Positions 21,029-35,164 of a DNA stretch of 36,718 nucleotides are shown piece by piece. Position 1 is the stretch's first letter, and every line of letters starts with the position of its first letter. Source of the DNA: Magnetovibrio sp. (GTDB lineage: Bacteria > Pseudomonadota > Alphaproteobacteria > Rhodospirillales > Casp-alpha2); contig JAPPPF010000159.1 of NCBI GenBank assembly GCA_028817665.1, positions 1-36,718 on the forward strand, written 5' to 3'. Both the position numbers and the translations under genes were made by a program. Below the pieces are notes generated by a model. The model saw only the letters and a program-made list of their open reading frames with translations, did not search any database and had not been told where the DNA came from.

Positions 21029-21847
21029 TTAGATATGGGAATCCAGGCGTTCTTGATAGAGTTGCAGGACGGTCGCGGCGGTCTCCTCGATCGACTTGCG
21101 GCTGACGTTGATCACCGGCCAGTCGTGCTTGGCGAACAGCCGCCGCGCCTCGCTGATCTCCTTCGAGACCATTTCCAGGTTCACGTAGTCCGTGTTCTCG
21201 TCGCGGTCGAGGAGCTTCAGGCGCTGGCGGCGGATCTCGACCAAACGCTTCGGATCCTTGGTCAGGCCGACCACCAGGGGTTTCTCGATCTCGAAAACCT
21301 CCTTCGGGATCGGACAGCCCGGCACGATCGGCACGTTGGCGGTCTTGATGCCCCGGTTGGCCAAATAGATGCACGTCGGAGTCTTTGAGGTGCGCGACAC
21401 GCCCAGGAGCACCACGTCGGCCTCGTCCAGGTCCCATGTCGACTGGCCGTCGTCGTGGGAGAGCGCGTACTGCATGGCCTCGATGCGGTTGAAGTACTCG
21501 GCGTCCATGACGTGCTGTTCGCCGGGCCGGGCGTGGCCTTCGGCGCCGAGGAAATTTCCGAGCGCCGCGATCACCGGATCAAGCACCGGGATGCACGGAA
21601 CCTGCAGGTTGGCGCAGCCTTCCTCGAGCAACCGCCTGATCTTGTCGTCGACCAGCGTGTAGATCACGAAGCCGCCCTCTTCCTTGAGCGCCGCCAGGAT
21701 CTCGTTGACCTTTTCCTCAGTACGCACCAGGGCCCAGATGTGTTCCTCGGCCTCGATGTTTTCGAAATGCACCAAACAGGCCCGGCCGACGAGATTGACC
21801 GTTTCCCCCGTCGAGTCGGACACCAGGTGGAAATGAAACTGCTTCAT
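21029..21847 (-). CDS. ppsR: Pyruvate phosphate dikinase / PEP synthase regulatory kinase-pyrophosphorylase (RP001 homologue)
   Basis: This 272-residue DUF299 protein reversibly phosphorylates a threonine on pyruvate phosphate dikinase or PEP synthase, switching it off and on. It starts F-H-F-H-L-V-S-D-S-T-G-E-T, with a P-loop-like G-V-S-R-T-S-K-T-P (around residue 150), the segment Y-L-A-N-R-G-I-K-x-A-N-V-P-x-V, and C-terminal V-S-R-K-S-I-E-E-T-A. The target enzyme is not in the window. It is the first gene of the leftward operon. Its homologue flanks the Caulobacter and Rickettsia origins opposite hemE, which is why the gap to its right is important. Confidence 0.95.
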   Translation of the reverse strand: MKQFHFHLVSDSTGETVNLVGRACLVHFENIEAEEHIWALVRTEEKVNEILAALKEEGGFVIYTLVDDKIRRLLEEGCANLQVPCIPVLDPVIAALGNFLGAEGHARPGEQHVMDAEYFNRIEAMQYALSHDDGQSTWDLDEADVVLLGVSRTSKTPTCIYLANRGIKTANVPIVPGCPIPKEVFEIEKPLVVGLTKDPKRLVEIRRQRLKLLDRDENTDYVNLEMVSKEISEARRLFAKHDWPVINVSRKSIEETAATVLQLYQERLDSHI

Positions 21848-22278
21848 CTACTCACAATCGCCTGTGGATTTGTTCGCCCGGAGTTGCGGACAACCCGCGA
21901 AAATCGCCAGCGCGGCCAAACCGTTCAGAATTCGCCAGATCGGTTATCATGTTTTTACGCAGGGGAAAACTTTTTCGGCGAACTTTCCCAAAACGACCGG
22001 GCGGGTATTGCCGCCAATCCATACCCATATTGTGGGTGAATGGTCCACTGACAGTTAGTGCTATGCAATCAGGCTGTTGACCGATAGGTTTCCCTTCCAT
22101 CCACATGATATCCCCCGAACCGTACCCGCGAGGCATCACCCATGAATATTCCTATTGATAACCCACGCTGAAAATTTAATCCCCTTTATCACGCGCCCAA
22201 CAACCACTACCTCTTTTTCTATATATATTTAAGTTATTTGGTAGCACCGTTTCCCGAGATCGATAGAGACCGAGAACT
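21848..22278. other. oriC: Probable chromosomal replication origin (oriC)
   Basis: This 431-bp gap between divergent ppsR and hemE codes for nothing I recognise and is far richer in A/T than its surroundings. DnaA-box-like sites matching 7/9 of TTATCCACA are at 21863-21871 (-), 22031-22039 (-) and 22097-22105 (+), with a 6/9 site at 22159-22167. A 12/13 match to the IHF consensus is at 22067-22079. An AT tract lies at 22211-22243. Genes diverge from it on both sides, and the ppsR(RP001)-hemE interval is the known origin location in Caulobacter and other alphaproteobacteria. No perfect DnaA box is present and I find no CtrA-type TTAA-N7-TTAA site, so the detailed architecture is unproven. Confidence 0.8.
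22211..22243. other. AT-rich tract, candidate DNA-unwinding element
   Basis: The run CTCTTTTTCTATATATATTT followed by AAGTTATTTGG is the most A/T-rich segment in the window, in DNA that is otherwise strongly GC-rich. It lies on the hemE side of the proposed origin, 36 bp before the hemE start. It could also hold the hemE promoter. Confidence 0.55.
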
Positions 22279-23313
22279 ATGACATCATCGAAGCCCTTTC
22301 TTCGCGCCCTCGCCGGAGACACCGTCCGCCCGGCGCCGGTTTGGATGATGCGTCAGGCCGGCCGCTATCTGCCCGAGTACCGCGAGCTGAGGATCCAGGC
22401 CGCCAACTTCGTGGATTTCTGTTTCACCCCGTCGATGGCCATCGAGGCGACCTTGCAGCCGCTTCGGCGCTATGCCATGAACGCGGCGATCCTGTTTTCC
22501 GACATCCTGGTGATCCCGCACGGATTGGGTCAGGACGTGGCGTTCCGCGAGGGCGAAGGTCCGGTCCTTGACGCGATCACCGACGCCGCCGGCATCGAGG
22601 CCCTGCAGCCGGGTGCCGTGAACGAGCGGCTGGCGCCGGTGTTCGAGACCGTGCGCGGCGTCAAGGCGGCCCTGGACGAGAAGACGGCGCTAATCGGGTT
22701 CGCCGGCGCGCCGTTCACCGTGGCGCTCTACATGATCGAGGGTCGGGGCGGCACCGAGGGGACCAAGATCCGGCGCTGGGCCGCGGAGGCGCCCGACGAG
22801 TTCGGCCGCCTGATCGATATTCTCTCGGAGGCGACAACGGCCTACCTGATCGAGCAGATCGAGAACGGCGCCGAGGCCCTGCAACTGTTCGACAGCTGGG
22901 CGGGCCTGTTGCCGGAATCCATGTTCCGGCGCTGGGTGATCGCCCCGAACCGGCGGATCGTCGAGGCCGTCAAGGCCGCCCATCCCAATATCCCGATCAT
23001 CGGGTTTCCACGCAACGCCGGCGTCCTGTACCGCGATTTCGCCGTCGAGACCGGCGTCGACGGTGTCAGCATCGACGCCACCGTTCCCCTCGAATGGGCT
23101 GCCGAGACCCTGCAGCCGATCTGCACCGTGCAGGGAAACCTCGACAATCACGTGCTGCTCAGCGGTGGCGAGACCTTGGAGGCGGAAGTCGGACGCATCC
23201 TCGATGCCTTCGGGAACGGCCGGTTCGTCTTCAACCTGGGTCACGGCGTGTTGCCGCCGACGCCGCCGGAACACGTCGGGCGCGTCGTCGATCTGATCCG
23301 GGCCCGGGCCTGA
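22279..23313 (+). CDS. hemE: Uroporphyrinogen III decarboxylase
   Basis: HemE removes four carboxyl groups from uroporphyrinogen III to give coproporphyrinogen III. The 344-residue product has the substrate-binding start R-P-A-P-V-W-M-M-R-Q-A-G-R-Y-L-P-E-Y-R, and F-S-D-I-L-V-I-P with the catalytic Asp. G-F-A-G-A-P-F-T, D-S-W-A-G and the C-terminal F-N-L-G-H-G-V-L-P follow. It is the first rightward gene from the proposed origin and leads hemE-hemH-hemJ with gaps of 15 and 16 bp. Its own promoter must lie within the origin region, so replication initiation and hemE transcription may interact. Confidence 0.97.
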   Translation: MTSSKPFLRALAGDTVRPAPVWMMRQAGRYLPEYRELRIQAANFVDFCFTPSMAIEATLQPLRRYAMNAAILFSDILVIPHGLGQDVAFREGEGPVLDAITDAAGIEALQPGAVNERLAPVFETVRGVKAALDEKTALIGFAGAPFTVALYMIEGRGGTEGTKIRRWAAEAPDEFGRLIDILSEATTAYLIEQIENGAEALQLFDSWAGLLPESMFRRWVIAPNRRIVEAVKAAHPNIPIIGFPRNAGVLYRDFAVETGVDGVSIDATVPLEWAAETLQPICTVQGNLDNHVLLSGGETLEAEVGRILDAFGNGRFVFNLGHGVLPPTPPEHVGRVVDLIRARA

Positions 23314-33788: not shown

Positions 33789-35132
33789 ATGACGCCCGAG
33801 ACGATCTACGCGCTGTCCAGCGGCCGCGGCCGCGCCGGGATCGCGGTGATCCGGCTGTCGGGTCCGGCGGCGCGTTCGGCGGCCGGGGCGGTCGGCGCCG
33901 ACGGCCTGGCGGCGCGGCGCGCCCGGCGGGTGACCCTCAGCGACCCCGCGAGCGGCGAACACCTGGACGAGTCCGTGGCGGTGTTCTTCCCGGAACCGGC
34001 GAGCTTCACCGGCGAGGATGTCGTCGAGCTCTACGTGCACGGCGGCCCGGCGGTCGTCGGCGGCGTCCTCGAGGCGCTGGCCCGCGACGACGCGCTCCGG
34101 ATGGCGGTGCCCGGCGAGTTCACCCGCCGCGCCTTCGAGACCGGCAAGCTCGACCTCACCCGGGCCGAGGCGGTGGCCGACCTGATCGACGCCGAGACCG
34201 CGGCGCAGCGCCGCCAGGCCCTGCGCCAGGGCGGCGGCGCCCTGGCCCGCCTCTGCGACGATTGGCGCGAGCGCCTGGTCGCCGCGCTGGCGCATTGGGA
34301 GGCGGCGATCGATTTCTCCGACGAGGAATTGCCGGCCGACCTCGAGGCCGGCACCGCCGCCGCGGTCGCCGAGCTGATCGCCGAGCTCGCCGGCCATCTC
34401 GACGACGCCCATCAGGGCGAGCGGCTGCGCGACGGCATCCACCTAGCGATCATCGGCCCGCCGAACGCCGGCAAGTCGAGCCTGCTGAACCTGTTGGCGA
34501 AACGCGACGTGGCCATCGTCTCGGAAACCGCCGGGACGACCCGTGACGTGCTGGAGGTGCATCTCGACCTCGGCGGCTATCCCGTGATCGCGGCCGATAC
34601 GGCGGGACTCCGCGACAGCGCCGAGCCGATCGAGATGGAGGGCGTGCGCCGGGCCCGGGCCCGGGCCGGGGACGCGGACCTGCAATTGTTGCTGTTTGAT
34701 TCCGCCGACTGGCCGCCCCGGGAGTCCGACTACCGGGAATTTCTCGGGCCGCGTGCCGTCGTCGCCGTCAACAAGATCGACCTGAAATCGCCGGCCCCAC
34801 CGGCGACGCTCGGTGGCCTCGATGCGACACCCATCTCGGTGCGCACCGGCGCCGGCATCGAGGCCCTGCTGGCCGCCCTCGAGGCCAAGGTCGCCGAGGG
34901 TTTCGACGCGGCCCAGGCGCCGGTGGTCACCCGAGCCCGGCACCGCGACGCGCTGCAGGCCTGCCGCCAGGCCCTGGAGCGGTTCGCGGATCGCGAGTCC
35001 CGGATGGTGGCGCCGGAGATCGCCGCCGAGGACCTGCGCCTGGCGGCCCAGGCGCTCGGCCGGGTCACCGGCCGGGTCGATGTCGAGGACTTGCTCGACG
35101 TCATCTTCAGCGAGTTCTGCATCGGAAAGTAG
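33789..35132 (+). CDS. mnmE: tRNA modification GTPase MnmE
   Basis: MnmE with MnmG places the (carboxymethyl)aminomethyl group on wobble U34 of tRNAs. The 447-residue product has the N-terminal formyl-tetrahydrofolate-binding domain (T-I-Y-A-L-S-S-G-R-G-R-A-G-I-A-V-I-R, then G-E-F-T-R-R-A-F-E-T-G-K-L). The central G domain has G-P-P-N-A-G-K-S-S (around 223), D-T-A-G-L-R and N-K-I-D (around 327). The C-terminal F-C-I-G-K carries catalytic Cys444. No clear ribosome binding site precedes the ATG. mnmG follows after 88 bp containing a parS site. Confidence 0.97.
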   Translation: MTPETIYALSSGRGRAGIAVIRLSGPAARSAAGAVGADGLAARRARRVTLSDPASGEHLDESVAVFFPEPASFTGEDVVELYVHGGPAVVGGVLEALARDDALRMAVPGEFTRRAFETGKLDLTRAEAVADLIDAETAAQRRQALRQGGGALARLCDDWRERLVAALAHWEAAIDFSDEELPADLEAGTAAAVAELIAELAGHLDDAHQGERLRDGIHLAIIGPPNAGKSSLLNLLAKRDVAIVSETAGTTRDVLEVHLDLGGYPVIAADTAGLRDSAEPIEMEGVRRARARAGDADLQLLLFDSADWPPRESDYREFLGPRAVVAVNKIDLKSPAPPATLGGLDATPISVRTGAGIEALLAALEAKVAEGFDAAQAPVVTRARHRDALQACRQALERFADRESRMVAPEIAAEDLRLAAQALGRVTGRVDVEDLLDVIFSEFCIGK

Positions 35133-35148: not shown

Positions 35149-35164
35149 TGTTTCACGTGAAACG
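35149..35164. promoter_or_regulatory. parS: parS centromere site (ParB binding)
   Basis: TGTTTCACGTGAAACG matches the 16-bp bacterial parS consensus TGTTTCACGTGAAACA at 15 of 16 positions, including the entire GTTTCACGTGAAAC palindrome. It lies between mnmE and mnmG, about 13 kb from the proposed oriC. This is the usual region for parS in alphaproteobacteria, where parA-parB lie just beyond mnmG-rsmG. ParB bound here would seed the partition complex for origin segregation. Confidence 0.9.

Follow-up and report, generated by a model that had tools for sequence, protein, structure and literature searches.

The non-coding gap between ppsR and hemE (positions 21848-22278) is very probably the chromosomal oriC of this uncultured alphaproteobacterium. 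The window, i.e. the whole stretch of 36,718 nucleotides that was analysed, is contig C276 of an incomplete assembly (3.2 Mb, 312 contigs, 86% complete), in which the candidate and its boundary genes are placed as follows:

21848-22278, no strand: oriC candidate, the non-coding, AT-rich ppsR-hemE gap (431 bp)
21029-21847, minus strand: ppsR (COG1806/RP001-type), left boundary gene (NF003742, 1.6e-103)
22279-23313, plus strand: hemE, right boundary gene (TIGR01464, 5e-116)

The neighbouring genes are maf and aroE past ppsR, and hemH, hemJ and rho past hemE; an Rfam scan of the window returned no match. GC content falls to 0.487 in the gap against 0.65 in the 4-kb locus, a value as low being reached by just 0.2% of 431-bp windows, and the minimum-GC window overlaps the gap. 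The initial annotation had described a 431-bp AT-rich, non-coding interval with divergent ppsR and hemE flanks, all of which is present, and had read it as oriC; that reading is supported, mostly on grounds other than those first given, namely the GC skew and parS placement of relatives and a conserved sequence block beside hemE.

This is the expected place for an origin in the class, and the assignment fixes a landmark for an uncultured lineage. The Caulobacter and Rickettsia origins are bounded by the same genes, hemE and the ppsR homologue COG1806 (RP001/CC_0001) (PMC1914354), and origins of this type share with the present locus their boundary genes, an AT-rich gap of 200-1000 bp (431 bp with raised AT here), weak DnaA boxes (here in a cluster) and the class Alphaproteobacteria. 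The gap differs from them in lacking CtrA sites, GANTC and any DnaA box with zero or one mismatch, and its IHF sites are not demonstrably conserved. CtrA-type TTAAN7TTAA sites, which are not universal in the class, are absent from this gap even when 1 mismatch is allowed, and across relatives they are depleted (20 versus 50 expected in shuffles). The predicted origins of Wolbachia, Ehrlichia and Anaplasma are similar in size and prediction criteria, although several of them have lost the hemE/COG1806 pairing that is kept here (PMC1914354).

Comparison with relatives, which the initial annotation had proposed as a check, shows the gap to be kept in position, length, AT richness and sequence blocks. 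Across 32 genomes (this genome plus others of the same genus, family and order), its length ranges from 384 to 530 bp with GC below that of the surroundings, and the ppsR/hemE pairing is kept in most relatives. The closest relatives with named records are MAGs (hemE identity: Rhodospirillaceae bacterium SI073_bin34, 76%; Rhodospirillaceae bacterium UBA3470, 73%; Magnetovibrio sp. SP115, 66%).

The candidate protein-binding sites outside the conserved block are listed below, where invariant columns are those of the genus alignment (background 25%):

21863-21871, minus strand: DnaA-box-like site AAATCCACA, box 1 as first annotated (7/9); conservation moderate and in the genus only (4/9 invariant columns)
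21885-21893, minus strand: DnaA box TTGTCCGCA, previously missed (7/9); counterpart, in the alignment, of the leftmost box in most family members
21945-21957, plus strand: further IHF-like site TATCATGTTTTTA (12/13); falls within a block that is partly conserved in the genus alignment
22031-22039, minus strand: DnaA-box-like site TCACCCACA, box 2 as first annotated (7/9); not conserved in the genus (2/9 invariant columns)
22067-22079, plus strand: IHF-like site AATCAGGCTGTTG as first annotated (12/13); not conserved in the genus (4/13 invariant columns)
22097-22105, plus strand: DnaA-box-like site CCATCCACA, box 3 as first annotated (7/9); sequence not conserved in the genus (3/9 invariant columns)
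22153-22161, minus strand: DnaA box TTATCAATA, previously missed (7/9)

The earlier description had correctly placed its three boxes (each 7/9), its IHF-like site (12/13) and an AT tract, and it was right to call the boxes degenerate in this species, whose gap contains no DnaA box with one mismatch or fewer; most of the boxes it drew on, however, are not among the conserved elements (2/9 and 3/9 invariant columns for boxes 2 and 3). Five 7/9 boxes occur in this gap versus 1.42 expected in shuffles (P = 0.013), a cluster mildly above chance that is suggestive only, and no single box is above chance. When the 32 gaps are pooled, 66 DnaA boxes with at most one mismatch are found versus 5.2 ± 2.1 expected, together with 73 sites no more than one mismatch from TTATCCCCA (6.3 expected). 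Many relatives carry a minus-strand box ~35-50 bp from the ppsR end of the gap; in most family members the leftmost box reads TTATCCACA, TTATCCCCA or TTGTCCACA, and its counterpart here is TTGTCCGCA at 21885-21893. At the position aligned with box 3, the congener G003 carries TTATCTACA. The IHF motif WATCAN5WTR has 3 matches in this gap (0.14 expected), and IHF-like motifs show no enrichment across relatives (12 versus 8.9 and 34 versus 32.1 expected).

Beside hemE we observe a conserved block (22177-22239), missed in the initial annotation, in which a weak box, TAATCCCC, is followed by a spacer, C[A/T/C]A triplets and an AT tract:

22177-22185, plus strand: weak DnaA box A, TAATCCCCT, 6/9 to TTATCCACA and W-box-like; first 8 bases invariant in the genus and found in nearly all relatives
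22186-22194, plus strand: very degenerate tandem box B, TTATCACGC (5/9)
22198-22209, minus strand: relaxed DnaA-trio-like array; top strand CAA CAA CCA CTA, equivalent to bottom strand 3'-GTT GTT GGT GAT-5'
22214-22239, no strand: AT tract TTTTTCTATATATATTTAAGTTATTT, the probable unwinding element; the best-conserved 20-bp windows of the gap start at 22206-22215

All 8/8 columns of TAATCCCC are invariant in the genus alignment, as are 16/33 columns of the AT tract as first delimited (22211-22243); the published Caulobacter W-box is TCCCCA. Aligned across relatives, the block keeps its layout, with TAATCCCC followed by a spacer of mostly 9-13 bp, then by between two and six C[A/T/C]A triplets and finally by a tract rich in TATATA. 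The spacer is a second box (TTATCCACA/C) in some genomes, box B being intact or nearly so in, e.g., G027 and G006. At three loci (L197, L011 and L033 of genomes G199, G036 and G035), the C[A/T]A array has a mirror image in TAGTAG(TAG) units on the opposite, right-hand side of the AT tract.

The core of the block is present in 27 of the 32 gaps, versus 0.1 expected. Written as the strict pattern TAATCCCCN{8,16}CWACNACNWC, it has a single match in the 3.2-Mb assembly, inside this gap, and across 41 genomes every match but one (G026:C89) falls at the ppsR/hemE locus, while a reversed control gives zero matches in the same 41. When the comparison is widened to 193 genomes drawn from the class, 15 give a match (own genome included; reversed control, matches in 4 genomes), and 13 of the 15 loci also hold hemE or ppsR. 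Upstream of hemE, looser versions also occur in other members of the class; the block was not found at the Hyphomonas and Hyphomicrobiales loci L203 and L239. With its single match here and a reversed control of zero in close relatives, the block provides a compact origin marker for fragmented alphaproteobacterial genomes.

The block of this species is more degenerate than that of most relatives, in its triplets (CAA CAA CCA CTA) as well as in box A (6/9) and box B (5/9). Locus GC has shifted strongly within the genus (0.65 in this species versus 0.46-0.52 in congeners G002-G004), a shift that may explain the more degenerate boxes and triplets seen here.

The arrangement recalls the Bacillus unwinding system (BUS), which in B. 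subtilis consists of tandem boxes, a short spacer, trinucleotides and an AT tract (PMC8287927). Both share the order and orientation box-box-spacer-triplet array-AT tract, and the distance from box to array is near the published peak of 10-13 bp (it is 12 bp in this species and falls within 9-13 bp for 25 of the 30 gaps with box A and array). They differ in sequence: published BUS criteria ask for a box with at most 2 mismatches and at least 3 consecutive 3'-NAN-5' trios within 16 bp of that box (PMC8287927), whereas box A (TAATCCCCT) differs from TTATCCACA at 3 positions and box B (TTATCACGC) at 4, and the units at the conserved site, GTT GTT GGT GAT, carry T, A or G rather than a constant A as the middle base of the strand predicted to be engaged. 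The conserved block thus fails the published sequence criteria, and a BUS search that demands a middle A would overlook or misplace it. A formal match does exist elsewhere in the gap (22153-22161, minus strand, followed by ATATTCATG); such matches arise in 42% of simulated gaps, so that the box/spacer/NAN rule discriminates poorly when applied to AT-rich origins as long as this one.

By analogy of layout, we consider that the conserved block probably works like a BUS. In the latter, DnaA extends away from the boxes as an oligomer that takes hold of two bases per trio on one strand (PMC10721633); transferred to the present gap, this geometry would make the bottom strand, 3'-G[T/A/G]T-5', the engaged one. 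DnaA would first load on the scattered weak boxes and then assemble on the tandem weak boxes A and B (22177-22194), from which the oligomer would extend along the C[A/T/C]A triplets (22198-22209), engaging their bottom strand, and the AT tract beside hemE (22214-22239) would open and permit helicase loading.

Two other readings of the triplets accept the gap as oriC. They could belong to a hemE promoter, leader or other element and not be engaged by DnaA as trios, which we regard as unlikely, if well short of negligible: the array sits 61-135 bp from hemE, within promoter or leader range, and its middle base departs from the 3'-NAN-5' rule as published, three consecutive canonical units occurring in just 5 of the 32 gaps. 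Such an element does not, however, sit easily with a distance between box A and the array that is mostly 9 or 12-13 bp while the number of units varies, with an order of box, spacer, triplets and AT tract that is kept across the order and part of the class, or with G027, where an intact box stands immediately ahead of the array (TTATCCACAGGCCCTACCTACAACAACTA). Alternatively, DnaA might approach from the hemE side and engage the top strand as 3'-CA[T/A/C]-5', so that a middle A is constant throughout when this strand is read 3' to 5'. This we judge improbable, given that the AT tract has no conserved DnaA box on its hemE side, that the standard-orientation box is nearly always on the other side, and that possible inverted TNGTNG/TAG units on the hemE side are only weakly enriched (9 versus 3.9 expected, simulation maximum 11).

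If the bottom strand is indeed engaged, its relaxed middle base bears on how DnaA would read it. On the top strand of the 32 gaps the middle triplet base is T in 72 units, A in 51, C in 9 and G in 0. A middle T within a trio slows opening in B. subtilis; in the BUS, the middle A is read by Asn187, and the G by Arg202 and Glu228 (PMC10721633). Numbering residues by sequence alignment to Bacillus DnaA, we find position 187 of 53 proteins from the order and class to be Tyr in 48, His in 3 and Phe in 2, with Lys at position 202 in 53 of 53; no change is seen at Glu183, Glu228 or the arginine finger. Alphaproteobacterial DnaA thus differs from that of B. subtilis in having Tyr, Phe or His for Asn187 and Lys for Arg202. 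Outside the Alphaproteobacteria, alignments and sequence give Asn187 in B. subtilis and T. maritima, and Gln in A. aeolicus and E. coli. The changed pocket and the relaxed middle base therefore occur together, and from these sequences we hypothesize that both may have co-evolved, with the proviso that a single lineage is set against few outsiders and the association may be coincidence. We tentatively raise the possibility that origin opening in Alphaproteobacteria relies on a recoded DnaA-trio, 3'-G[A/T/G]T-5', whose fixed positions are the two outer bases instead of the middle A, and that this recoding accompanies the change of Asn187 to Tyr/Phe/His and of Arg202 to Lys in the base-capture pocket of DnaA. 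In the part of the DnaA-trio literature consulted, we found no earlier description of a relaxed triplet in Alphaproteobacteria; the nearest text concerns epsilonproteobacteria. A joint change of DnaA pocket residues and trio sequence would bear on single-strand recognition by DnaA across bacteria.

The position of the origin is indicated by the chromosomes of relatives, the window's own 36 kb displaying no clean GC-skew switch. In the single-contig genome G021, of which 430 kb were covered contiguously and the rest of the chromosome by samples, skew stays below zero between 100 and 430 kb and is mostly positive beyond; the cumulative minimum, at 432,996, is 30 bp off the gap (432,492-432,966), and dnaA, at 175 kb, lies 257 kb from it. 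G040, likewise a single contig, has a sharp switch with its minimum at 3,418,155, 3.6 kb away from a gap that begins at 3,421,766, and its dnaA is ~410 kb from the gap. The initial annotation had allowed for a minimum elsewhere, for example at dnaA; both relatives have theirs at or near the gap, not at dnaA.

Two members of one genus, G009 and G020, have a skew near zero over the ~110 kb from dnaA to hemE and beyond, with the minimum 211-321 kb away from the gap in G009 and, in the flat stretch, 11-48 kb away in G020. The flatness looks as if this stretch had recently been inverted or moved. Since skew is flat here, the placement of parS decides: the exact parS, TGTTTCACGTGAAACA, is found 10-12 kb from the gap in both, with none near dnaA. 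Eight of the nine genomes checked (G003, G004, G009, G010, G020, G021, G034 and G040) have all the parS found within 1.3-16 kb of the gap, and the single-contig genomes have no parS at dnaA.

That the origin should instead lie beside dnaA, as in many bacteria, with the gap being merely the divergent ppsR/hemE promoter region, is hardly credible: although AT-rich DNA between divergent genes fits promoters, and the near-zero skew of G009 and G020 means that skew alone cannot exclude dnaA there, the minimum is at the gap and far from dnaA in G021 and G040, parS in single-contig genomes is at hemE, and a promoter is not expected to hold clustered DnaA boxes and triplets. A published survey reports that dnaA is not conserved near ori in Rhodospirillales (PMC8116508). 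A search of the own assembly found dnaA to be absent; the gene is present in 37 of 41 relatives, including 3 of 4 congeners, and we therefore rejected a DnaA-less lineage and take assembly incompleteness as the most likely cause.

The assembly of this species contains two parS sites, of which one is perfect and lies on another contig, at 11180 of C250, which may be the neighbouring one. The other is in the window:

35149-35164, no strand: parS-like palindrome TGTTTCACGTGAAACG (15/16), 12.9 kb from the gap

Sites of this kind, ~10-15 kb from the origin, would serve the separation of newly replicated origins. The one at 35149-35164 sits directly behind mnmE (33789-35132).
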